The position numbers and the translations under genes are program-made. From contig JAFSGE010000057.1 of the NCBI GenBank assembly GCA_017434885.1, positions 30,417 to 94,416 of the forward strand: 64,000 bases of DNA, written 5' to 3'. The DNA comes from Lachnospiraceae bacterium (GTDB lineage Bacteria; Bacillota; Clostridia; Lachnospirales; Lachnospiraceae). Under the pieces are notes generated by a model. That model was not told the origin of the DNA. It saw nothing but the letters and a program-made list of their open reading frames with translations, and ran no database searches. This document shows positions 822 to 13,006 of the stretch, one piece after another (the first letter of the stretch is position 1; each line of letters begins with the position of its first letter).

Positions 822-3074
822 TTATTTCTTTTTGTTTTTGGCTTCCGAATCCTCCACCTGTTTCAGACTTCCGTCCACCTGCAACACCCAACTGCTCCAA
901 TTCACTAATTTTTGTCTGGAACACCTATCCTCTTCCAGCATGCCAAACCGATACTCTCCATCAGGAATATCTTCCAATCTGACCTTTCCGGCAAATCCGG
1001 TTAAATCCACATTTAACTGGTCTGTCAAATTTTTCCTGATATCCGGCCTGTATCTATCCTGTACGGCAATGTACAGAACCTGCTTACTTTCCTTATTTTC
1101 AAGCAAAAGCGTTTTTTTGTAACACGCGTTATTTGCGCCGATAACAAAGGAATATCCTTGAAAATAATAACCCATATCTTCCGCCTTTGGTTCTGCTTCC
1201 CCTTTTCCCGGAGCCACCCCGTATTTCCATTTATAAATATCCATGGCACCTTCCATTCCGATAACAACACAGCCGTCCTGCCTTATATTTTCAGGCAGTC
1301 TGTCCTTCGCTGTCACCTTTGCCCATGGCATATCAAGCGTCACCTGATAAGAAAACGCCGGCGAGTACTCTGATTCCAACATATCATTTGTAAGATATTT
1401 GTGATAAAAAGGATCTGTCCCATATATCTTCTGATGTTTTTCATACAAAACATCCTTTTCCCGCAAAAGACGAAGCTGTTTTTCTTCCGATTCCCCGTCT
1501 TTTCCGCGGCTTAAAGACTCATGATGGTACAAAGTAACATCATTTCTTACAATATTATAATATCCCGCTTCAAAAAACTTATAGCACAAATCCACATCAT
1601 TAAAAGCAACTGCCAATGCCTCCTCAAAGCCGCCTACCTGTTCAAAAACAGACTTTTTCACAAGCAGACATGCACCGGTTACCGCAAGCATATTGTGAAC
1701 TCCTCTGTTTCTTCCGTAATACCAGTCTGTCTTGTCCGAAAGAAACTGCAATTTATGCGCAGGTCCCACACGCAAATTAGTGATACCTGCATGCTGAATG
1801 ATATCAGAATCAGGATAAAGAAGCTTTGCGCCAACTGCTCCCGCATAGGAAAGCATAGCTTTTTCTACCAGCAGGGAAAGCCAGTTCTCCTGAACAATTT
1901 CCATGTCGTCATTTAAAAACAATAACAGATTTCCCTTGGCATAGTCTGCTCCCATATTACACATACGGGAAAAGTTAAAGGTCATAGGTCTATGGTAATA
2001 ACGTATCAGTTCTCCTTCCACATACTCCCATGCCTTCTCATTTTGTACAGCAATTTCTGTCTGAATCCTTTCCTTATTTTCTTCATTGCTTCCATTATCA
2101 ACAATTACTATCTCATAAGGAAATTCGCATTTTGTCCTATCTAAAAAAGAACGGATACAGGTAAACAGTACATCCGGGTTATCTTTTGACGGAATTATCA
2201 CGGATACAAAAGGACTTTCCGCGTTATTTCCTGTTTGCACACGGCAAGACTCCAATTTCCAGTTCTTCACAGTATCATATGCACATTCTTTTCCATGGAA
2301 TAAAATTTCACTCAAATGATAAACCGGCACGCAATCCCCGTTTCGCATACTAAAGGCACCGCTTCGGCAAAGCACCCGCATAAGAAGCTCATACAGACCT
2401 TCCCCTCCTACATGCTCAGATACAACAAAATCATCCGCAAGCAGTAACAATTCCTTTCTTCTGACAGCGGTTAAACTGCCGAAATAAAAGTAGGAAAGGA
2501 AACTGTCGGGAGCAAAATCCGGTTTAAACCACGGGTTCTTCCTTTTCCCTTCTACCCTTACGTCTTCATCTCCGTAAATCACGATTATATTTTTGTTTTC
2601 CAAGAAGCATTTTGCCATCTCACATACTGCAAAATCAGCCAAATCTCCCTCAAAAGCCTGAAATAAAATAACATCCGCTTCGCATTTTTTTATACAAGAA
2701 AGTACCTCCTGCATTTTCAATCTGCGAATCTCTTCCGGCAAAAGCAAAACAAAGGAAAAAACAGCATTATTGTTGTTTTTTTCGTCAAAAACTTCCAAAT
2801 ATCGACATTTTAAACCGTTTTTTGAATGAATTCCTTCATTTTGTTTTCCAAATCTTTCATCATTGTCCTTTACTTCTGCATTTGTCAGACTTATTTCACT
2901 TTCCCTCACAACAAGACCGTCAACTTTAAGCCGTTCCTCCTGTATTGTTATCCACTTTTCATAGGACATCATTTTTTCGAAAAGTTCTTCCGCATATTGC
3001 TTTTCCTGTTTATTTATCAGAATATTTTTCAGTCCCTGTTTCAGTGAAGTCACTTTTAATTCCTTTCTGTGCAT
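822..3074 (-). CDS. Large two-module GT2 glycosyltransferase
   Basis: 750 residues, ATG at 3074 with AGGA upstream. The clear catalytic GT2 domain is residues ~289-530: SVIIPSKDNPD at its start, IVDNGS, and the metal-binding LNDD at about 387-390. Residues ~110-260 carry remnants of another GT2 half (YGDEDVRVEGKR, WFKPDFAPDSFLSYFYFG), a signature of the second half of such domains, but its nucleotide-binding start is degenerate. The C-terminal ~150 residues look like a beta-sandwich. No signal peptide or membrane helix is seen, so it probably acts at the inner face of the membrane on the glycan built for the neighbouring Wzm/Wzt exporter. Donor and linkage are unknown. Confidence 0.85.
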   Translation of the reverse strand: MHRKELKVTSLKQGLKNILINKQEKQYAEELFEKMMSYEKWITIQEERLKVDGLVVRESEISLTNAEVKDNDERFGKQNEGIHSKNGLKCRYLEVFDEKNNNNAVFSFVLLLPEEIRRLKMQEVLSCIKKCEADVILFQAFEGDLADFAVCEMAKCFLENKNIIVIYGDEDVRVEGKRKNPWFKPDFAPDSFLSYFYFGSLTAVRRKELLLLADDFVVSEHVGGEGLYELLMRVLCRSGAFSMRNGDCVPVYHLSEILFHGKECAYDTVKNWKLESCRVQTGNNAESPFVSVIIPSKDNPDVLFTCIRSFLDRTKCEFPYEIVIVDNGSNEENKERIQTEIAVQNEKAWEYVEGELIRYYHRPMTFNFSRMCNMGADYAKGNLLLFLNDDMEIVQENWLSLLVEKAMLSYAGAVGAKLLYPDSDIIQHAGITNLRVGPAHKLQFLSDKTDWYYGRNRGVHNMLAVTGACLLVKKSVFEQVGGFEEALAVAFNDVDLCYKFFEAGYYNIVRNDVTLYHHESLSRGKDGESEEKQLRLLREKDVLYEKHQKIYGTDPFYHKYLTNDMLESEYSPAFSYQVTLDMPWAKVTAKDRLPENIRQDGCVVIGMEGAMDIYKWKYGVAPGKGEAEPKAEDMGYYFQGYSFVIGANNACYKKTLLLENKESKQVLYIAVQDRYRPDIRKNLTDQLNVDLTGFAGKVRLEDIPDGEYRFGMLEEDRCSRQKLVNWSSWVLQVDGSLKQVEDSEAKNKKK

Positions 3075-3111: not shown

Positions 3112-5199
3112 TTAGCCAAACAGCTTCTTCTTACCTGCAATTATCGTTTCTGCAAGTTCTTTTGTCAAAGGAGCAATTTCCAATTTAACAGACAGTACAT
3201 TTTCCCCTGTTCTGGGCAATTCACTCAGTTTAATTGTCATATTAGGGTCTGTTGTTGCAAAAACAAAGGAATCCTTCTCAAGCGGCGTTCCGTTGGAAAC
3301 AATGCATTTCTTATTAAAAGGTACTGCAATCCCATTAACAAGCAGTTCCTTTAGCTTCACAACACAATATTTGTCTGCCGGGTCAATACGGAGCGCAGTC
3401 ACGTTTCCGTCAAAAGGAATTTCCGCTTCAATTACATTCTCTTCTGTATAAATGTCCGGCAAATAGTAGGAATCCGCTTCTGAAAATCCGGTTCCTCTGT
3501 CCAAATAAACCTGAATCCTTTTATCCAAAATTTCCTGCAAATGTTTTTCCGTCAGTACCTTGGGATCTACCGCGTAAGTTCCGATTGTTGCACGGATTTC
3601 ACCCATAGACTTGCGTTTTCCTGTCACATGCTTCTGAAATTTTAATTCCTTTTCACGATACTCATCCGCTTCTGCCGGTGTGATACCAAGCCTCTTTATA
3701 ATATAATCTAAATTTAATTTATTTCGTTTTTCTTCCTCAAGTACATAACAGTACACTGCTCGGAACGCAATTTCCTTTGACGGAACTACCTCTTCTTTTG
3801 TCCACTCATAGTCAATAACAGTCCAGTTGTCTCCGTCTACCAAAATATTGGCAAATATCAGGTCATAATCTGCAACCGCTTTTTCTTCTCCGTAAGAAAT
3901 GAACTCCAAATACTTGTCAAACAAGCTATAAAATGCCTCAGTATCATCCTTTTCCAAGCTTTCATCCAAAAGCATTTCCAGTGTTTTTCCTTTTTCAAAG
4001 GGAAAAGCAGCATAGCCTTTCTCTTCCACCCACTTACAGGCATTCACGGAAAGCCCGCTACCCTCGTACCGCTCAGAAAGCTGCTTGTAATAGCTTTCCA
4101 TCTTCTTTACGTGGGAAACTGCATGAGAAGATAGCGGAATTTTGCGAATTTCCTTTCCTTCCTTTGTTTCTGCAAGTTCCGTTCTGAGTACATATTCATC
4201 TATTCTGTCATTGGAATATTTGGCATAGACAGTTTCAGGCTCTTTTCCGATTACCACCATATAGGAATTAGAAAAGACATCAAACAAGCGGTCTGTAATT
4301 ACACCGTCAAAAACATACTTTTCATTGAAGAGAACCATCCTGTCCCTGTCAAAATTACGCATGTTATTTGTAAGTTCTCCCATTTCAGGAAGCCTTTTAT
4401 CCGAATAAATCACTGTAGGAAACTTATAATCAGGATAGGGATAATAAAAGGCACGCTGTTTCACACCACAGTTATCCATAATTCTTTCCAAACCCGGTCG
4501 TGTAAAGGTTCTGGCACTTCCGCCATCCGGATAGCCTTCCAATCCGCTGAAATAAGTGCCTACATGGTCTTCCTTACATCCTGCCCAGTACTTTAAGCCG
4601 AATTTATTCTCAATGGCAATCACAAGGCGTCCGCTTACTTTAACATGCTTCATCATGATTTTCAGAAAATCTTCATATGGAGTTTCTGTTCCCATATAGG
4701 ACTGGGCATATTCAAATACCCCTATCAAGCAGACATAATCATAATCCATAGGAAGCTCCGGCTCAATATCACTGAAGTTTCCCACGCAAATCCTGATATT
4801 ATCCCTGTCCTGATTGCGGTACGCATTGATATGGCTTCTTTTGGCAGACAAATCTACGCAAGTTACCTCTCCTGCCTTTTCTGAAAGCTTATCGGTAATT
4901 GCCCCACATCCGGAACCGATTTCCAGTACTTTGTGACTCTTATCAATGGGAAGCCAGTCTACAATATTGGCACGAAGCGGCGATAAATGATATAAAATCG
5001 GCCAGCTTCCCTCTCTCTCAATGATAGAGGGATACTCCACTCTTGATGCAGTCTTTACAATAGAAAGCAGTTCATCTTCAATTGCACCGTCACTGTACAA
5101 ATCCTCTCCCGGATAATGACGATAATCCAAAGTAACCTTGCCAATTTGTTTTGGCAAGGCACTAATTAGTTCTTCCTGTTTTAAGTGTAACGGCTTCAT
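3112..5199 (-). CDS. SAM methyltransferase fused to kinase-like (APH-fold) domain
   Basis: 695 residues from ATG at 5199; an upstream TTG at 5235, overlapping the ABC ATPase stop, is possible but weaker. Residues ~60-220 are a class I methyltransferase with the SAM loop VLEIGSGCG (91-99) and CVDLS. Residues ~325-495 resemble an aminoglycoside-phosphotransferase/choline-kinase fold: DYDLIFAN (D444, D446, N451) sits where HxDxxxxN is usual, followed by VIDYEW (D463) as the metal-binding Asp. The last ~130 residues look like a beta-sandwich. Methyltransferase-then-kinase order beside a Wzt/Wzm exporter recalls WbdD, which caps and so terminates ABC-exported O-antigen. The capping role here is inference; the first His of the kinase motif is replaced by Asp, so activity is uncertain. 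Confidence 0.8.
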   Translation of the reverse strand: MKPLHLKQEELISALPKQIGKVTLDYRHYPGEDLYSDGAIEDELLSIVKTASRVEYPSIIEREGSWPILYHLSPLRANIVDWLPIDKSHKVLEIGSGCGAITDKLSEKAGEVTCVDLSAKRSHINAYRNQDRDNIRICVGNFSDIEPELPMDYDYVCLIGVFEYAQSYMGTETPYEDFLKIMMKHVKVSGRLVIAIENKFGLKYWAGCKEDHVGTYFSGLEGYPDGGSARTFTRPGLERIMDNCGVKQRAFYYPYPDYKFPTVIYSDKRLPEMGELTNNMRNFDRDRMVLFNEKYVFDGVITDRLFDVFSNSYMVVIGKEPETVYAKYSNDRIDEYVLRTELAETKEGKEIRKIPLSSHAVSHVKKMESYYKQLSERYEGSGLSVNACKWVEEKGYAAFPFEKGKTLEMLLDESLEKDDTEAFYSLFDKYLEFISYGEEKAVADYDLIFANILVDGDNWTVIDYEWTKEEVVPSKEIAFRAVYCYVLEEEKRNKLNLDYIIKRLGITPAEADEYREKELKFQKHVTGKRKSMGEIRATIGTYAVDPKVLTEKHLQEILDKRIQVYLDRGTGFSEADSYYLPDIYTEENVIEAEIPFDGNVTALRIDPADKYCVVKLKELLVNGIAVPFNKKCIVSNGTPLEKDSFVFATTDPNMTIKLSELPRTGENVLSVKLEIAPLTKELAETIIAGKKKLFG

Positions 5200-5228
5200 T
5201 CTTTCTCGTTTTCCTTCCACTTGTTCTG

Positions 5229-6557
5229 TTAACAATTCGCATCGGCCACTTTGACATCAGAATTCATATCAAAATAACCCACTGTATTTTTATCAGAAAT
5301 CACTGTAATATTCAGCACGTCATATAATCTGTGATAAACCTGAAAATCTTCCTTTTCATATCCCGTAACCCCCAGGGAAAGCAGATATTCTCCGCCCTGT
5401 AGATTGATTTCCTGCGTAAATGTAATTTCTTTTACACAGCCCGCCTTAACAGGTTCTAAGAAAGCCTTCTCTATCAGGGTATTGGTTCCCGTAATTTCCA
5501 CACCTTTTATATTTTTGATGGTAAATGCAAAGATAGGGGCTTCCACATCTTCATGAAAACGCACCTTCATATGCACACTACAGGGCTTCCCTTTTAATAT
5601 GGTACTCGTATCACGGTTCATACCATCTGTTATTTTATATGTTTCTATGGTAGCTGCCCGTGTACCGTACTCAAGCAATTCCGGATTTACTACGTTTGCA
5701 TTTATTCCCTCTGTACTACTTGCTGTTTTTATACCATCTGCACTGGCTGCTGCAGCAGCTTCTATCTCTTCATCATCCAACAGGCTGGTGTTTGTTCCGT
5801 CATCAGAAACATACTGACCTACCAACACCTGCTTGTAGACATCAATCATCTCCTTGGGACTTCCCTCACCCAGCTTCACTCCCTGATTCAGCAAAACTAC
5901 ACGGTCGCAATATTTGCTGATACTGCTGAGATCATGACTGACAAACACAATGGTTTTCCCCATCTCTTTAAATTCTTCAAATTTGTGATAACACTTTGCC
6001 TGAAAGAACACATCACCTACAGATAACGCTTCATCCACAATCAATATTTCCGGTTCAATATTAATGGCAACGGCAAATGCCAGCCTCACAAACATACCGC
6101 TGGAATATGTTTTGCAGGGCTGATATACATAATCTCCAATATCTGCAAAGCTTAAAATGTCATCCATTTTGGCATCGATTTCTTTTTTGGAAAATCCCAT
6201 CATGGTTCCGTTTAAGTACACGTTCTCAATACCGTTATACTCCATATTAAAGCCTGCACCAAGCTCCAAAAGAGCTGAAACACGTCCGTTTACATTAACA
6301 TCACCGCGTGTGGCATTAAGCACGCCTGTAATAATCTTCAAAATTGTCGATTTGCCGGAACCGTTGGTACCGATAATTCCCACGGTCTCCCCTTGATAAA
6401 TCGTCATATCCACGCCTTTTAGCGCATAGTGTTCTTTATATTTTTTCTTTCTGCCAAGTCCCAATGCTTCTTTCAGCCGGTCCGAAGGCTTGTTATACAG
6501 TTTATAAGCCTTTTCCAGGCCACTTACCTGTATTGCAATTTCTTTCTTGTTTTCCAT
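5229..6557 (-). CDS. Polysaccharide ABC exporter ATPase (Wzt/TagH type) with C-terminal binding domain
   Basis: 442 residues, ATG at 6557 with GGAAGGA upstream. Residues 1-250 are an ABC ATPase: Walker A GTNGSGKST (63-71), signature YSSGM, Walker B ILIVDEAL, and the switch HDL. This is the subfamily that powers export of lipid-linked polysaccharide or teichoic acid. Residues ~310-435 are an added beta-sandwich, placed like the carbohydrate-binding Wzt-C domain that in O9a-type systems recognises the finished, capped chain. The linker between them (about 255-300) is Ala/Ser/Thr-rich. It lies 21 bases after its permease, and the methyltransferase-kinase gene follows at once. A C-terminal domain implies the exporter selects its substrate. 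Confidence 0.92.
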   Translation of the reverse strand: MENKKEIAIQVSGLEKAYKLYNKPSDRLKEALGLGRKKKYKEHYALKGVDMTIYQGETVGIIGTNGSGKSTILKIITGVLNATRGDVNVNGRVSALLELGAGFNMEYNGIENVYLNGTMMGFSKKEIDAKMDDILSFADIGDYVYQPCKTYSSGMFVRLAFAVAINIEPEILIVDEALSVGDVFFQAKCYHKFEEFKEMGKTIVFVSHDLSSISKYCDRVVLLNQGVKLGEGSPKEMIDVYKQVLVGQYVSDDGTNTSLLDDEEIEAAAAASADGIKTASSTEGINANVVNPELLEYGTRAATIETYKITDGMNRDTSTILKGKPCSVHMKVRFHEDVEAPIFAFTIKNIKGVEITGTNTLIEKAFLEPVKAGCVKEITFTQEINLQGGEYLLSLGVTGYEKEDFQVYHRLYDVLNITVISDKNTVGYFDMNSDVKVADANC

Positions 6558-6578: not shown

Positions 6579-7610
6579 TTATAAAACATCTGCAAAATGC
6601 ACTTTTAATCTCTTGAAAATCAATGTTCCCACGCAAAATAAAGTCACTGTAAACAGCCAAAAATACGTGGAAGAATAAAAATGCTCATAAAACCAGTTAT
6701 GTCCGTAAATGGCATCACGGTATCCGTTTACAATATATACCAGCGGATTGAGCTTAAGCAGCGTCACCACTTTGTCATCATTAAACATATTAATATTCCA
6801 TAGTATCGGTGTCGCCCACATACCAACCTGCAGGGCAATATTAATAATCTGTGCCAAATCTCTGAAAAAAACCACAACTGCACAGGTACAATATGTTGCC
6901 GCGAGCACCAGCATAAACAGGCAAAAGCTGTAATAAACCACCTGAATCATGTTAATGGTGGGATAATAACCGTATACTGCCGCTACAATCAGTAAAATCA
7001 CCACAAAAAAGATGTGGATAAAGGTAGCTGCTACCAGCTTGATAATTGGCAAAATACTGATATTAAACACCACTTTTTTGACAAGATAACTGTATTCCAA
7101 AAGCGCATTGGTTCCGTTGGTAATCATTTCCGAAAAATAAAACCACGGAACAAGCCCTGATGTCAAAAACAGCACATACGGTACCTCCACACCACTGGCA
7201 ACCATCTCACTTCTGGTATTAAATATTACGTCAAATACAATCCAGTACATCAGTACTGTAACAACAGGCTGAATCAGCGCCCAAATAAAGCCCAGATAAG
7301 AACCTGCATATCTTTTTTTAAAATCATTTTTGGCAAGTTTCCAAATCAGTTCCCTGCTTTGAAACAATTCCCTCGGTATCACTAACAGCCTGTCATAATA
7401 GATTCCGAATATCACACAGGCCAAAACCAAAAGCACACAGGCGCAATACTTCTTTAAATTCTCTGTATGCTGGTCCGGCGCAAGCGGATTATAATGGTTT
7501 AATATCACAATTGCCACAATCAGACAGATTGCATAAAAAATACCGACACCTACCGGTTTGGGAATGCTTTTCATCCTTCTGATACCGGTTTTTTCTTTCT
7601 TACTTTTCAT
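6579..7610 (-). CDS. Polysaccharide ABC exporter permease (Wzm/TagG type)
   Basis: 343 residues. An ABC-2 permease with about six core membrane segments from residue ~115 on, beginning with the typical WKLAKNDFKKRYAGSYLGFIW amphipathic stretch and QPVVTVLMYWIVF. Two extra hydrophobic segments (about 20-40 and 53-70) precede the core, so the protein is longer than the usual ~260 residues. It would form the membrane channel with the ATPase encoded next, moving lipid-linked glycan outward. The start at 7610 lies six bases past the rfbC stop and its GGAG is very close to the ATG; an internal ATG at codon 13 is an alternative. Confidence 0.9.
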   Translation of the reverse strand: MKSKKEKTGIRRMKSIPKPVGVGIFYAICLIVAIVILNHYNPLAPDQHTENLKKYCACVLLVLACVIFGIYYDRLLVIPRELFQSRELIWKLAKNDFKKRYAGSYLGFIWALIQPVVTVLMYWIVFDVIFNTRSEMVASGVEVPYVLFLTSGLVPWFYFSEMITNGTNALLEYSYLVKKVVFNISILPIIKLVAATFIHIFFVVILLIVAAVYGYYPTINMIQVVYYSFCLFMLVLAATYCTCAVVVFFRDLAQIINIALQVGMWATPILWNINMFNDDKVVTLLKLNPLVYIVNGYRDAIYGHNWFYEHFYSSTYFWLFTVTLFCVGTLIFKRLKVHFADVL

Positions 7611-7616
7611 GCTCCG

Positions 7617-8183
7617 TTAACCATTCTTTCTATTTTCGGTATATTCTTTCAGTCCGCCCCACTTTTGGTCTTTTTCAGACATAATCAGCTCAGTTCCGGG
7701 GGCAATAGGCCACTTGATACCGATATCAGGGTCATCATATTTAAGACCGCCTTCATCATTGGGATGATAGAAGTCGGTACATTTATACGCAAATTCTGCA
7801 TAATCGGAAAGCACAACAAACCCATGTGCAAAATTTTTGGGGATAAAAAATTGCTTTTTGTTTTCCGCGGAAAGAACCACTCCGTACCATTTCCCATAGG
7901 TTTCGGAACCGGGACGTAAATCTACCGCTACGTCAAACACTTCCCCTGCAATCACTCTTACCAGCTTGTCTTGAGGGTAATTAATCTGAAAATGAAGTCC
8001 GCGAAGCACATTTTTTACGGAAGAAGACTGATTGTCCTGCACAAATACCTGATCTATTCCTGCCTCCTTATAATCATTATAATTATAACTTTCCATAAAA
8101 TAGCCTCTCGCATCCCCAAACACAGCAGGGGTGATAACTTTCAATCCTTCTATTTCACATGTTTCAACTGTAATCTTTCCCAT
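7617..8183 (-). CDS. rfbC: dTDP-4-dehydrorhamnose 3,5-epimerase
   Basis: 188 residues, the family's normal length. ATG at 8183 follows AGGAG. It epimerises dTDP-4-keto-6-deoxyglucose at C3 and C5 on the way to dTDP-L-rhamnose or related deoxysugars. Cupin-fold signatures include GYFMESYN, VLRGLHFQ (catalytic His), PQDKLVRVIAGEVFDVAVDLR and PKNFAHGFVVLSD. It lies between rfbA and the exporter permease in one transcription unit, so the cluster makes its own dTDP-sugar donor. Confidence 0.95.
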   Translation of the reverse strand: MGKITVETCEIEGLKVITPAVFGDARGYFMESYNYNDYKEAGIDQVFVQDNQSSSVKNVLRGLHFQINYPQDKLVRVIAGEVFDVAVDLRPGSETYGKWYGVVLSAENKKQFFIPKNFAHGFVVLSDYAEFAYKCTDFYHPNDEGGLKYDDPDIGIKWPIAPGTELIMSEKDQKWGGLKEYTENRKNG

Positions 8184-8248: not shown

Positions 8249-9118
8249 TTACAAACCTTCCGCAACCTCTTTTAGATATTTGCCGTAATCTGTTTTCATA
8301 AGGGGCTGTGCAAGATTAAGGAGTTGCTCTTTGTCAATAAATCCTCTCTTATATGCAATCTCCTCAATACAGGAAATATAAAGTCCCTGGCGCTTCTGAA
8401 AAGCCGCCACAAAATCTGCCGCATCCAAAAGGGAATCATGATTTCCGGTATCAAGCCACGCAAATCCTCTTCCCATGGTTTCTACACGAAGAGTTCCTCT
8501 TCGTAAATATTCATTGTTAATACTTGTAATTTCAATTTCACCTCTTGCGGAAGGCTTTACATTCTTTGCAATTTCCACTACATCATTGTCATAAAAATAT
8601 AATCCCGGCACCGCATAATTGCTCTTGGGATTGGCCGGTTTTTCTTCGATGGAAATCGCTTTTCCCGTCTCATCAAATTCCACTACACCATACTCTCTGG
8701 GATCACGCACATAGTAGCCGAATATGGTTGCACCACTCTCTCTGGACGCCACTTCCCTAAGCATTTTGGAAAAGCTCTGACCATAGAAAATATTATCACC
8801 AAGTACCAGTGCCACGGAATCATTTCCGATAAAATCCGCACCGATAATAAATGCATCTGCAAGACCTCTTGGAACCTCCTGAACAGCATAGGCAAACTTC
8901 ATGCCAAGCTGACTTCCGTCTCCTAAAAGTTCTTCAAAAACCGGCAAATCTCTGGGAGTTGAAATAATAAGTACTTCTCTGATTCCCGCCAACATCAATG
9001 TTGACAGAGGATAATAAATCATCGGTTTGTCATAAACCGGCATAATCTGTTTACTGATTGCTTTTGTAAGGGGATAAAGTCTTGTTCCTGACCCTCCCGC
9101 CAAAATAATTCCTTTCAT
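8249..9118 (-). CDS. rfbA: Glucose-1-phosphate thymidylyltransferase
   Basis: 289 residues, typical RmlA length. Start ATG at 9118 with GGAGG upstream. It joins dTTP and glucose-1-phosphate to give dTDP-glucose. The N-terminal nucleotide loop [31 protein letters not shown] and [20 protein letters not shown] are all present. It is transcribed from its own promoter-like element between rfbB and rfbA (9190-9219) and leads the unit rfbA-rfbC-permease-ATPase-methyltransferase-GT2s. Confidence 0.97.
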
Positions 9119-9265: not shown

Positions 9266-10351
9266 TTATACATTTTTATACATAGCATCGTAATACTTCT
9301 GATAATCGCCGCTGGTCGCATTCTTCATCCAGTCTTCATGTTCAAAATACCACTGAATTGTCTTGCGGATACCTTCTTTGAACATGGTTTCCGGTTCCCA
9401 ACCGATTTCAGCCTTAATCTTATCAGGTGCAATGGCATATCTTCTGTCATGTCCCTTACGGTCAGCCACATATTCAATCAGATTTTCACTGACCAGTTCT
9501 TTTCTGGGGTCACCTTCCGGAAGCATATCCTGCAAGGTATCTAAGATGATATGCAAAATTTCAATATTCTGCTTTTCATTGTGACCGCCTACATTGTATG
9601 TTTCGAACAGTTTTCCTTGTTCCTGTACCATATCGATTGCCTTGGCATGGTCTTCTACATAAAGCCAGTCACGCACATTCTTACCGTCTCCGTAAACCGG
9701 AAGCTTTTTCCCTTGGAGCGCATTGTTAATCATAAGAGGAATGAACTTCTCAGGGAACTGATAAGGTCCGTAATTGTTGGAACAATTTGTAATATTGGCA
9801 GGAAACTTATAAGTATCCATATATGCTTTCACCAACATATCTGAGCTTGCTTTACTTGCGGAATAAGGGCTGTGAGGATCATAAGGTGACGTCTCATAGA
9901 AGAAGGCATTCTCATCATCAGGAAGTGAACCGTATACCTCATCTGTGGAAACATGAAGGAACTTTTTCCCTTCTTTGAAGCTGCCGTCAGGAAGCTCCCA
10001 TGCTGCCTTGGCACAGTTTAACATTACCGCTGTTCCCAAAACATTCGTCTGCACAAACACTTCGGGATTTGCAATACTTCTGTCTACATGGCTCTCTGCC
10101 GCAAAATGAACCACTCTGTCAATATCGTTTTCTGCAAAAATCTTTGCAATTGCTTCCTTATCACAAATATCAGCCTTTACAAAAGTATAATTTTCTCTTT
10201 TTTCCACTTCTGTAAGGTTTTCCAGATTACCTGCATAAGTAAGCGCATCCACATTAATAATTCTAATCGTATCTCCGTATTTTTTGAACATATAATGAAT
10301 ATAGTTGGAACCGATAAAACCGGCACCGCCTGTGACCAAATAAGTTCTCAT
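9266..10351 (-). CDS. rfbB: dTDP-glucose 4,6-dehydratase
   Basis: 361 residues, ATG at 10351 with GGAGAG upstream. An extended short-chain dehydrogenase: NAD-binding TGGAGFIGSNYIHYMF at the N-terminus, STDEVYGSL with the catalytic Thr-Asp-Glu, YSASKASSD (catalytic Tyr and Lys) and NNYGPYQFPEKFIPL. It converts dTDP-glucose to dTDP-4-keto-6-deoxyglucose, feeding RfbC. It is separated from rfbA by a hairpin and a promoter, so it may be a single-gene unit. The reductase RfbD that would finish dTDP-rhamnose is not in this window. Confidence 0.97.
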   Translation of the reverse strand: MRTYLVTGGAGFIGSNYIHYMFKKYGDTIRIINVDALTYAGNLENLTEVEKRENYTFVKADICDKEAIAKIFAENDIDRVVHFAAESHVDRSIANPEVFVQTNVLGTAVMLNCAKAAWELPDGSFKEGKKFLHVSTDEVYGSLPDDENAFFYETSPYDPHSPYSASKASSDMLVKAYMDTYKFPANITNCSNNYGPYQFPEKFIPLMINNALQGKKLPVYGDGKNVRDWLYVEDHAKAIDMVQEQGKLFETYNVGGHNEKQNIEILHIILDTLQDMLPEGDPRKELVSENLIEYVADRKGHDRRYAIAPDKIKAEIGWEPETMFKEGIRKTIQWYFEHEDWMKNATSGDYQKYYDAMYKNV

Positions 10352-10441: not shown

Positions 10442-13006
10442 TTAATATCCCAAATAACTGATGTTCATATCCACGTTGCCACCGATACCTGTCACTTTTC
10501 CCTTAGAGGAGTATTGCCACATATCGTATCTTGTTCTGTCATATGTGGGTGTCGCCGCATACTGTGCAAGCCAGATTTTGTAACCGGTCAGACTTGGTGT
10601 ATCCATATACTCATTAAACCATGTTTTGTTTGCATAAATACCGGTCTTATACCCTGAATTCTGGATAGTCTGACAAAATGCCTTACATACCGCTGTTCTG
10701 GTGCTGGGACTGATGCCGTCCGCTCGTCCGCCGCTGGCTTCCACATCAAGGAAAATAGGATAAGTCAGATTATATCCTTTCACAAGACTAAGTGCCATGG
10801 ACGCCTCTTCCACCGCTTCCACTTCATTCGTTGCCTGCGAGAAGAAGTAGACACCTACCTTAAGTCCTGCATTTTGTGCCCCTTTGATATTGGTATGGAA
10901 GGTCGGGTCTTCAATCAACGCGCCGGTTGTGGAACCACGATATCCGCATCTGATAATAACATAGGAAATACCGCTATTCTTTACAGCATTCCAGTCAATA
11001 GTTCCGTTCCACTTGGAAACGTCAATTCCCAGATTTCCGGAACCGTTATCAAGTACTCCGTTGGAATTAAAATTATATTTTGCTCCCTGAATTACCTGTT
11101 CTCCGGTTACCTTGTTTCCATTCTTATCAAAATAATAAACACTGCCGTCTATGGTCTGCCATCCGGTGTAACGGTACTCTCCGGTAGTCTTACTTATTTT
11201 ACGGTAGAACTCTTTAATGTCACCGTTAAAATAGTCTGCATACTTTGCTTCCCTGAAATTGCCGTCACTGCCTTTTACATAAAGCACTTCTCCGTCTGTA
11301 GTTTTCAGATTACTTTGTGTATCATTCTTTACACTATCCGCCGGACTCGGTGTCGCTGTAGGTGTTACGGAAGGCGTCACTGTAGGTGTCACCGTGGGAC
11401 TTGTACTTGCCGTAGGACTTACCGAAGCGGTAGCTGTAGGGCTTACTGAAGCGGTAGCTGTAGGACTTGCTGTTACCGCCGGCGTCGATGACGGTGTCGC
11501 AGAAGGTATTGCCGTGGGCGTTGCTGTCGCTGCCGCTGTAGGTGTCACTGTCGGCGTAGGCGCTTCTGTCGGTGCCTGTGTCGGCTCTGCCGTTGGCTCC
11601 TCAGTCGGTGCCTGTGTCGGCTCCTCGGTGGGTGCTTCTGTCGGCTCCGCAGTAGGCGCTTCTGTCGGCTCCGCGGGCGCTTCCGTCGGCTCTGCAGGTG
11701 CTTCTGTTGGCCCTGCAGGTGCTTCTGTCGGCTCCGCAGGTGCTTCTGTCGGCTCACCGCCCGCTTCTGTCAGCAGCCGGAATCCGACTGCTGCTTTTGC
11801 ACTGGGATCCACAATATTGCTTCTGTCCACTTTTTCATAACTCTCTGTTGTCTGTTCCGTTCCTTCTATCAGGGTCTTAGTTGATTCTACCCATTCAACG
11901 GTATCTGTGTTAGTCGATTCCACTACGGTTTCGTTCACTTTGGTATCTTCCACCGCAACATTAACCTGTGCTTCTGTCTTAATTTCATTTACTACATCAA
12001 CCTTTTTATATTCAATGGTGTCACGAACGGTAATTGCTGTAGCATCTGTCGAGAAGCTGTATTCTTCAAGGTCACTTGGTCCGATTATTTTCACCTGGTA
12101 TTTTCCGGGTTCAATATTTTTTTCATAAATGATTCCGTCTTTATCTTCATCCTTCAGAGTGTATGTGTTTCCGGAGGGTTTGGTAACTTCAACTTCAAAA
12201 ACAATGTTCGGTATCAATTTTCCCGACTTTTTGTTGATAAACTTAATTTTCAAGTCTTTTTGAATGGAAGTAAGATTCATTTCCACTTCAATCTTACCTG
12301 TTTGTTCATCTACCACCGTAGCTTCTTTTTCAATCTCTTCAAGCTCCGCTGCATATACCTTCGATGCCTGTGCATCCGAGATAGCTAAAAGACCGCTTTC
12401 TCCGATAACGGGAATATTTTCCACGCCCTCACCGACTTCTGCAAATGTAGCTATCTGCTTTTCATCCATCTTGGTACCTACATAAATAGAGCCTACCACA
12501 CCTGCCAGAATCAGAACCACCAAGCCGGTAAACATCACAATATGGTCTACCATACTCATATTCATGAGAAAATCCGCTATTTTCCCGATGCCTCTCGGTT
12601 CGTCATCCTCATCGTCTTCATCTTCGTAGTCTTCATCGTCCTCGTCGTCTACGTCGTAATCCTCGTCGTCTTCCTCATCTTCGTAGTCTTCATCGTCCTC
12701 GTCGTCTACGTCGTAATCCTCGTCGTCTTCCTCATCTTCGTAGTCTTCATCGTCCTCGTCGTCTACGCCATAGTCTTCATCATCTTCTGCATCTTCGTAG
12801 TCTTCATCATCCTCGTCGTCTACGCCATAGTCTTCATCATCTTCTGCATCTTCGTAGTCTTCATCATCCTCGTCGTCTACGCCATAGTCTTCATCATCTT
12901 CTGCATCTTCGTAGTCGTCTTCATCAAAATCCATCCAGTCAAGCTCTTCCGGTCTTTTGTGCTGTTTCTTCTTTTTACTGTTCATTCCTCGCAGCAAAAT
13001 TTCCAT
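10442..13006 (-). CDS. Membrane-anchored GH25 lysozyme with cytoplasmic acidic repeat tail
   Basis: 854 residues. ATG at 13006 is preceded by GGAGG at good spacing, so the start is firm. Order: a basic N-terminus; five 19-residue acidic repeats (32-126); one membrane helix (about 156-177); an exported region with a small beta domain (about 230-330); a Pro/Thr/Glu/Ala linker (about 414-555); a stretch resembling wall-binding repeats (YFDKNGNKVTG); and a GH25 domain from ~660 to the end with GIDVSKWNG and the catalytic FLDVEAS. GH25 enzymes cut peptidoglycan between MurNAc and GlcNAc. With no cleavable signal peptide, the protein should stay in the membrane with its acidic tail inside. It sits beside the surface-glycan cluster. 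Confidence 0.9.
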   Translation of the reverse strand: MEILLRGMNSKKKKQHKRPEELDWMDFDEDDYEDAEDDEDYGVDDEDDEDYEDAEDDEDYGVDDEDDEDYEDAEDDEDYGVDDEDDEDYEDEEDDEDYDVDDEDDEDYEDEEDDEDYDVDDEDDEDYEDEDDEDDEPRGIGKIADFLMNMSMVDHIVMFTGLVVLILAGVVGSIYVGTKMDEKQIATFAEVGEGVENIPVIGESGLLAISDAQASKVYAAELEEIEKEATVVDEQTGKIEVEMNLTSIQKDLKIKFINKKSGKLIPNIVFEVEVTKPSGNTYTLKDEDKDGIIYEKNIEPGKYQVKIIGPSDLEEYSFSTDATAITVRDTIEYKKVDVVNEIKTEAQVNVAVEDTKVNETVVESTNTDTVEWVESTKTLIEGTEQTTESYEKVDRSNIVDPSAKAAVGFRLLTEAGGEPTEAPAEPTEAPAGPTEAPAEPTEAPAEPTEAPTAEPTEAPTEEPTQAPTEEPTAEPTQAPTEAPTPTVTPTAAATATPTAIPSATPSSTPAVTASPTATASVSPTATASVSPTASTSPTVTPTVTPSVTPTATPSPADSVKNDTQSNLKTTDGEVLYVKGSDGNFREAKYADYFNGDIKEFYRKISKTTGEYRYTGWQTIDGSVYYFDKNGNKVTGEQVIQGAKYNFNSNGVLDNGSGNLGIDVSKWNGTIDWNAVKNSGISYVIIRCGYRGSTTGALIEDPTFHTNIKGAQNAGLKVGVYFFSQATNEVEAVEEASMALSLVKGYNLTYPIFLDVEASGGRADGISPSTRTAVCKAFCQTIQNSGYKTGIYANKTWFNEYMDTPSLTGYKIWLAQYAATPTYDRTRYDMWQYSSKGKVTGIGGNVDMNISYLGY
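11340..11765 (-). repeat. Low-complexity PTEAP / ATASP linker coding repeat
   Basis: Inside the GH25 gene. The coding strand repeats 12-15 base units giving PTEAPAE-type motifs, then TATASVSP-type motifs. These disordered linkers usually carry exported catalytic domains across the cell wall. The opposite strand has a long Gly/Ala/Val-rich open frame that is only the complement of this repeat. Confidence 0.85.
12629..12913 (-). repeat. 57-bp tandem repeat, five copies, encoding acidic 19-mers
   Basis: Five head-to-tail copies of a 57-base unit encode YEDAEDDEDYGVDDEDDED (three copies) and a variant with E and D in place of A and G (two copies); a partial sixth follows. Copy similarity at the DNA level is near perfect within each subtype, which points to recent expansion and likely copy-number variation between strains. 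Confidence 0.9.

Follow-up and report, generated by a model that had tools for sequence, protein, structure and literature searches.

A candidate methyltransferase-kinase chain terminator linked to a Wzt_C exporter in Lachnospiraceae

How is a rhamnose-containing glycan, made beside an ABC exporter in a Gram-positive bacterium, brought to an end and released for export? The question is raised by a 64,000-nucleotide stretch of Lachnospiraceae contig JAFSGE010000057.1 (hereafter, the window), in which a gene on the minus strand (3112-5199) encodes a 695-amino-acid protein with a methyltransferase followed by a kinase-like region. We call this protein MTK, for methyltransferase-kinase. The gene follows one for a Wzt exporter ATPase with an added C-terminal domain, Wzt_C. 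We consider it likely that MTK terminates the chains of a polysaccharide that contains rhamnose and is probably anchored to the wall, and that it does so by way of a methyl-phosphate cap read by the Wzt_C exporter. A sequence-only reading of this DNA had suggested a Gram-positive module for chain termination and export checking, and that suggestion, whose functional part is inferred, is well supported by gene context, module shuffling, fusion to Wzt and co-occurrence. The host is read as Gram-positive because the closest public relatives of MTK, at most 82% identical, are titled Lachnospiraceae.

The MTK open reading frame (ORF) spans 3112-5235 on the minus strand and opens with TTG. The probable start is the ATG at 5199, 29 bases past the wzt stop codon, and translation from there yields the 695 residues and the motifs VLEIGSGCG, DYDLIFAN and VIDYEW that had been reported from the sequence. 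Three modules follow one another, all on the minus strand: a methyltransferase (4300-5145, residues 19-300) with the S-adenosylmethionine (SAM) motif E93-G95-G97-G99; a kinase module (3520-4278, residues 308-560) with a putative Lys, K353, and catalytic D446, N451 and D463; and a C-terminal domain (3130-3519, residues 561-690). The catalytic stretch, DYDLIFANILVDGDNWTVIDYEW, covers residues 444-466 (3802-3870). Pfam assigned methyltransferase families to MTK (best E 7e-9) and no kinase family, and in single-protein searches of Pfam, NCBIfam and PDB sequences the significant matches were to the methyltransferase alone. When Pfam was run on 30 family members, one weak kinase-family match (APH, E 0.024) was present among the matches listed, which cover 25 of 37 families.

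The kinase was recognized at the level of profiles and alignment columns. A profile built from 52 kinase modules matched a set of 23 APH-fold kinases with probability 91 and E 1.1e-6, the alignment placing the catalytic Asp-Asn pair and the second Asp opposite their counterparts; four unrelated control alignments (RmlB, Wzt, phosphoglucomutase and glycosyltransferase) gave probabilities of 0.2-0.7 and E values of 0.075-0.31. Evidence from the PDB was weak, the full-length profile matching GCN2 in the kinase region with E 4e-4. In an alignment of 71 relatives (A2: 70 of 75 listed references plus the window protein, with L081, L094, L103, L107 and L108 omitted), K353, N451 and D463 were present in all 71 rows and D446 in 70, the remaining row having an X. 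Among 50 divergent kinase modules with a mean column identity of 27%, R, T, K, D, N, D, E and W were invariant; alignment A3 omitted L133, L159, L170 and L173. A count of the kinase motif was positive in 144 of 149 kinase ORFs, the misses being four that keep the residues but differ in the letter preceding the second Asp, and one with an X. Five comparisons gave kinase ratios of nonsynonymous to synonymous substitution (dN/dS) of 0.06-0.13, with dS close to saturation. The residue assignments follow the kinase motifs known as HxD, VAIK and DFG. Together, the APH-fold profile comparison and the invariant catalytic columns support the predicted kinase, as the sequence-only reading had it.

That reading had also noted that the classical kinase His is replaced by Asp and had raised the idea of a pseudokinase. 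The replacement holds: at position 444, 66 of the 71 relatives have D and 5 have N, the 50 divergent ones are split evenly with 25 D and 25 N, and two Gram-negative relatives have F or Y. The pseudokinase is unlikely, and we dropped it on the alignments, because none of the 71 and 50 relatives departs from the catalytic Asp, Asn and Asp apart from the single X, whereas the His is replaced in all.

To which known terminators is MTK related? ORF6 of Klebsiella pneumoniae O7 phosphorylates and then partially methylates a rhamnose acceptor; activity is lost in a D441A mutant, which makes chains that are not exported (Kelly et al. 2024, PMC11231755). The same authors report that Pfam detects the methyltransferase alone in ORF6 too, treat its C-terminal GT2 modules as variable, and give relatives in alpha- and gammaproteobacteria, cyanobacteria and Methanoculleus; the main text nowhere uses the term gram-positive (PMC11231755). 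A tblastn search of MTK against plasmids found relatives on pCC1524 of Pseudomonas asturiensis (E 1e-40) and pF217-3 of Citrobacter braakii (E 6e-29), and the remaining 13 of 15 records were weak. Both proteins come after a permease and an ABC ATPase. An alignment of 30 MTK relatives matched the Pseudomonas protein by hhalign over 633 columns and all three modules (probability 100, E 2e-46), and blastp of MTK against the Citrobacter protein (E 4e-36) spanned the methyltransferase and the beginning of the kinase. All six of the SAM-site residues named for ORF6 recur in the Pseudomonas protein under identical numbers: Y28, Y66, G91, G93, E112 and Y158. Opposite these in MTK stand Y35, Y70, G95, G97, D116 and Y164, and in a 32-row alignment that includes MTK the six columns held Y in 31, Y in 32, G in 32, G in 31, D or E in 32 and Y in 32 rows. 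MTK residues 561-690 aligned with the corresponding part of the Pseudomonas relative and occupy the place of the Ig-like carbohydrate-binding module (CBM) in ORF6. The Pseudomonas protein is 1457 amino acids long and ends in two GT2 glycosyltransferase (GT) modules that are 39% identical over 546 residues to the 656-amino-acid GT of the MTK locus; by alignment, one Gram-negative chain thus corresponds to two separate genes here. We therefore conclude that MTK shares the catalytic core of the O7 ORF6 kind; the coil of ORF6 and its GT modules in the same chain were not found in MTK. As a separate observation, the ORF6-like terminators on the two plasmids (L150:11920-16293 and L151:11944-13893) adjoin an ABC exporter, and a DNA search of E. 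coli genomes with the Citrobacter one found nothing.

The sequence-only reading had named WbdD as the model. The order of methyltransferase then kinase stands; kinship with WbdD does not. Against WbdD of the E. coli HS O9 locus, blastp of MTK gave E 0.094 and hhalign a probability of 68, both for the methyltransferase only, and the profile of MTK-family kinases scored a probability of 0.3. Membership in the WbdD family was dropped because WbdD gives no match to the kinase profile and the methyltransferases are alike at a generic level. The E. coli HS protein was picked from the annotated locus, where the record reads class I SAM-dependent methyltransferase between wzt and wbdA, so that the gene name is an interpretation.

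The recurrence of MTK goes beyond chance: within the window's family, 155 of the 299 genomes sampled (154 of 298 genera) have a relative at E <= 1e-10. Of these 299 genomes, 148 had both MTK and Wzt_C, 7 had MTK only, 28 Wzt_C only and 116 neither (Fisher p 6e-46, descent not corrected for). The 28 genomes with Wzt_C only may hold other, undescribed terminators beside their exporters. We then compared 149 loci, comprising 29 of the best family matches (the window itself, L004, was removed from 30), 80 public loci, and 20 mid and 20 remote loci that were picked by hand and not at random. The kinase accompanied the methyltransferase at all 149, in the same ORF at 135 and in the next at 14. Wzt_C lay immediately upstream at 131 loci, was fused at 2 and was elsewhere in the stretch at 8; it was absent from 3, and 5 had no room for it. 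It was thus in the stretch at 141 of the 144 loci with room. Occurrence of the family apart from an exporter, which the sequence-only reading had raised as a point that would tell against it, was confined to the other three, and all three genomes carry Wzt_C on another contig. Of the public loci, 64 carry the title Lachnospiraceae and the others Acetatifactor, Blautia or other labels. Wzm, Wzt and MTK were consecutive in 71 of these 80, and in 56 the order continued with the 750- and 656-amino-acid GTs; contig ends limit both counts. In a sample of the phylum, 10 of 299 genomes matched MTK, 4 of them within the family. The six matching loci outside it had the kinase motif in five cases and Wzt_C in the stretch in three.

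The modules have also been shuffled and joined. The kinase or the whole of MTK is joined to GT2 in several relatives: five loci (L115, L118, L128, L132 and L134) have a methyltransferase alone followed by a kinase-GT, two (L121 and L122) have methyltransferase, kinase and GT in a single chain, and two others (L119 and L120) encode methyltransferase and kinase as separate genes. In a Lachnospiraceae metagenome-assembled genome, a clean ORF of 1217 amino acids (L050:8411-12064) runs from ATPase through Wzt_C and an acidic low-complexity linker to MTK. A second candidate fusion of Wzt and MTK, L099, has ambiguous bases at the joint and was not counted as evidence.

Drawing on these genes, domains, conserved catalytic residues, ORF6-kind homology and exporter linkage, we propose the following scheme. 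A sugar transferase would start the glycan on a lipid carrier, and GT2 enzymes would extend it in the cytoplasm using dTDP-rhamnose. The MTK kinase would phosphorylate the last sugar at the non-reducing end, which is probably rhamnose, and the MTK methyltransferase would then methylate that phosphate. The methyl-phosphate would halt growth, and Wzt_C of the adjacent Wzm-Wzt exporter would read it, such that finished chains alone are exported. An LCP enzyme would join the exported chains to the wall.

Several findings weigh against this scheme. The kinase-only profile had no significant match in the PDB, its sole match being JAK1 at E 0.09. The K353 column is H or R in the Gram-negative relatives, which makes K353 unsure as the ATP Lys, and the second catalytic Asp is Glu in the Citrobacter relative. 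The link to ORF6 is drawn through relatives, residue numbers and architecture, and the seventh residue named for it is two positions off (D441 in ORF6, D443 in the Pseudomonas protein). MTK also has no visible coiled-coil ruler, a feature that the ORF6 authors call a marker of the strategy. As to distribution, 28 of 176 genomes with Wzt_C have no MTK at the cut-off used, the co-occurrence is uncorrected for descent, and L174, one of the six loci outside the family, has the methyltransferase without the kinase motif. The relevant ORF of L174 (4853-5890) encodes a 345-amino-acid relative of the methyltransferase that adjoins a Wzt with Wzt_C and might make a methyl-only cap.

Such a cap is also conceivable for MTK itself, the kinase module serving as a scaffold while the methyltransferase caps a hydroxyl. 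There is precedent: Geobacillus WsaE combines a methyltransferase with two rhamnosyltransferases, makes a 2-O-methyl cap and is encoded beside Wzm-Wzt, and E. coli O8 WbdD works without a kinase. We nevertheless find this improbable for MTK, given that the catalytic Asp, Asn and Asp do not vary apart from one X, that the low dN/dS values apply to the kinase and that ORF6, with the same module order, is an active kinase. A role for MTK in decoration, with methyl-phosphate placed on side chains or on sugars within the chain while growth goes on, appears more improbable still: the evidence does not fix the site of action along the chain, but the tie to Wzt_C exporters and the fusions to Wzt and to polymerase GTs suit a terminator better. 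Least probable, in our judgment, is another phosphate-bearing cap, such as a cyclic phosphate, or another order of reactions. The S-layer glycan of Clostridioides difficile, encoded beside an ABC exporter, does end in 2,3-cyclophosphoryl-rhamnose, for which its authors propose a role in termination; the SAM-site columns of the MTK methyltransferase are kept, however, and the characterized relative makes methyl-phosphate.

What could set chain length in place of a ruler? By a crude heptad score, MTK reached 0.83, inside the background of 188 proteins (95th percentile 1.06), and a C-terminal coiled coil of the WbdD type, which recruits the polymerase, was not found by this measure. On the same scale the Pseudomonas protein scored 1.29, WbdD 1.58 and MTK relatives up to 1.39. 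GT2 polymerase modules are absent from the MTK chain and form a separate gene at this locus, although they are fused in some relatives. A coil on the downstream 656-amino-acid GT (1.19 at residue 13) was considered and rejected: it is a guess, because scores of 1.18 and 1.21 came from two other GTs of the locus and the median for the N-termini of 57 orthologues was 0.98. A bolder conjecture, which we hold to be rather doubtful, is that capping and export form one hand-over unit, in which a terminator with no ruler takes chain length from contact with the polymerase GT and passes the cap directly to Wzt_C, the two being a single chain in one lineage; in that case, the wall rhamnans of gut Lachnospiraceae would commonly bear a methyl-phosphate end that has gone unseen.

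Gram-positive chain termination is not new as an idea, being preceded by Geobacillus WsaE and the phosphate-ended S-layer glycan of C. difficile, and the WbdD paper mentions Gram-positive O-linked glycans (PMC3482155). In the open-licence literature, a scope outside which most subscription papers fall, we found no methyltransferase-kinase terminator for a Gram-positive wall glycan or for Lachnospiraceae. ORF6 and MTK, compared through relatives, have in common a methyltransferase, a cryptic kinase and a further domain in that order, SAM-site residues (by way of the Pseudomonas relative), a catalytic Asp then Asn, a rhamnose glycan and an exporter whose Wzt has a C-terminal CBM. ORF6, however, acts in lipopolysaccharide synthesis and combines a coiled coil and two GT2 modules with its other parts in a single chain, whereas the GTs are separate from MTK, the crude score shows no coil in it, and its cluster is Gram-positive and includes an LCP gene. 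WbdD of E. coli O9a (PMC3482155) shares with MTK the methyltransferase-then-kinase arrangement and the gene order wzm-wzt-terminator-GT, but in the E. coli HS sequence the kinase is not alike by profile and the methyltransferase is similar at a generic level, and no coiled coil is seen in MTK. By description, WsaE of Geobacillus stearothermophilus resembles the MTK locus in its Gram-positive host, its rhamnan and its methyltransferase with rhamnosyltransferases beside Wzm-Wzt, and differs in its 2-O-methyl cap, with no kinase named in its description (PMC2943079). The C. difficile SLCT-11 locus, also compared by description, shares a Gram-positive rhamnose glycan with a phosphate-bearing end and an ABC exporter, and differs in that its phosphate is cyclic, with no enzyme named for it in the description (PMC6254364). 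Wzt C-terminal domains read caps in other systems, and the carbohydrate-binding domain of Aquifex aeolicus Wzt, a Wzt_C like that in the window, reads a 3-O-methyl cap (PMC9445017).

Gut Lachnospiraceae such as Ruminococcus gnavus make wall glycans rich in rhamnose, and these are reported to be immunostimulatory. If about half of the sampled genera do cap such chains by methyl-phosphate, chain length and export would be governed by the cap, which would also offer a chemical mark and an assay point. The kinase of a newly described kind of terminator also gains a large natural set of sequences with modules fused, split and joined to an exporter.

The other genes of the cluster within the window also lie on the minus strand. 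Wzt (5229-6557, 442 amino acids) matched ABC_tran (Pfam E 5e-22), with best PDB matches to 8dku and 7k2t in its ATPase part; the added C-terminal domain that had been noted from the sequence is Wzt_C (PF14524, E 4e-41; 5265-5672, Wzt residues 296-431), the proposed cap reader. Pfam assigned ABC2_membrane to the permease Wzm (6579-7610) and identified the dTDP-rhamnose genes rmlC (7617-8183), an rmlA-type nucleotidyltransferase (8249-9118) and an rmlB-type dehydratase (9266-10351); for rmlD, another contig of the genome encodes a protein homologous to E. coli RfbD (35% identity, E 2e-44). Downstream of MTK are a GT2 glycosyltransferase of 750 amino acids (822-3074, Pfam) and the start of the gene for the 656-amino-acid protein with two GT2 modules (1-775), which continues beyond the window (L002:10805-12775). 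To the left of the window, the contig carries this double GT2, a phosphoglucomutase, two GT2 genes, and then a sugar transferase, an LCP gene and another GT2; Pfam identified the sugar transferase as bacterial sugar transferase with CoA_binding_3 and the LCP protein as LytR_cpsA_psr. Ahead of the rml genes, here and in related loci, is a GH25 lysozyme-like protein (10442-13006) whose N-terminus is acidic and rich in repeats and which also has a proline-threonine stretch and repeats of the choline-binding type. In many of loci L054-L113, though not in the window, a second ORF of ~420-470 amino acids that matches part of the GH25 protein lies between the RmlA and RmlC matches.

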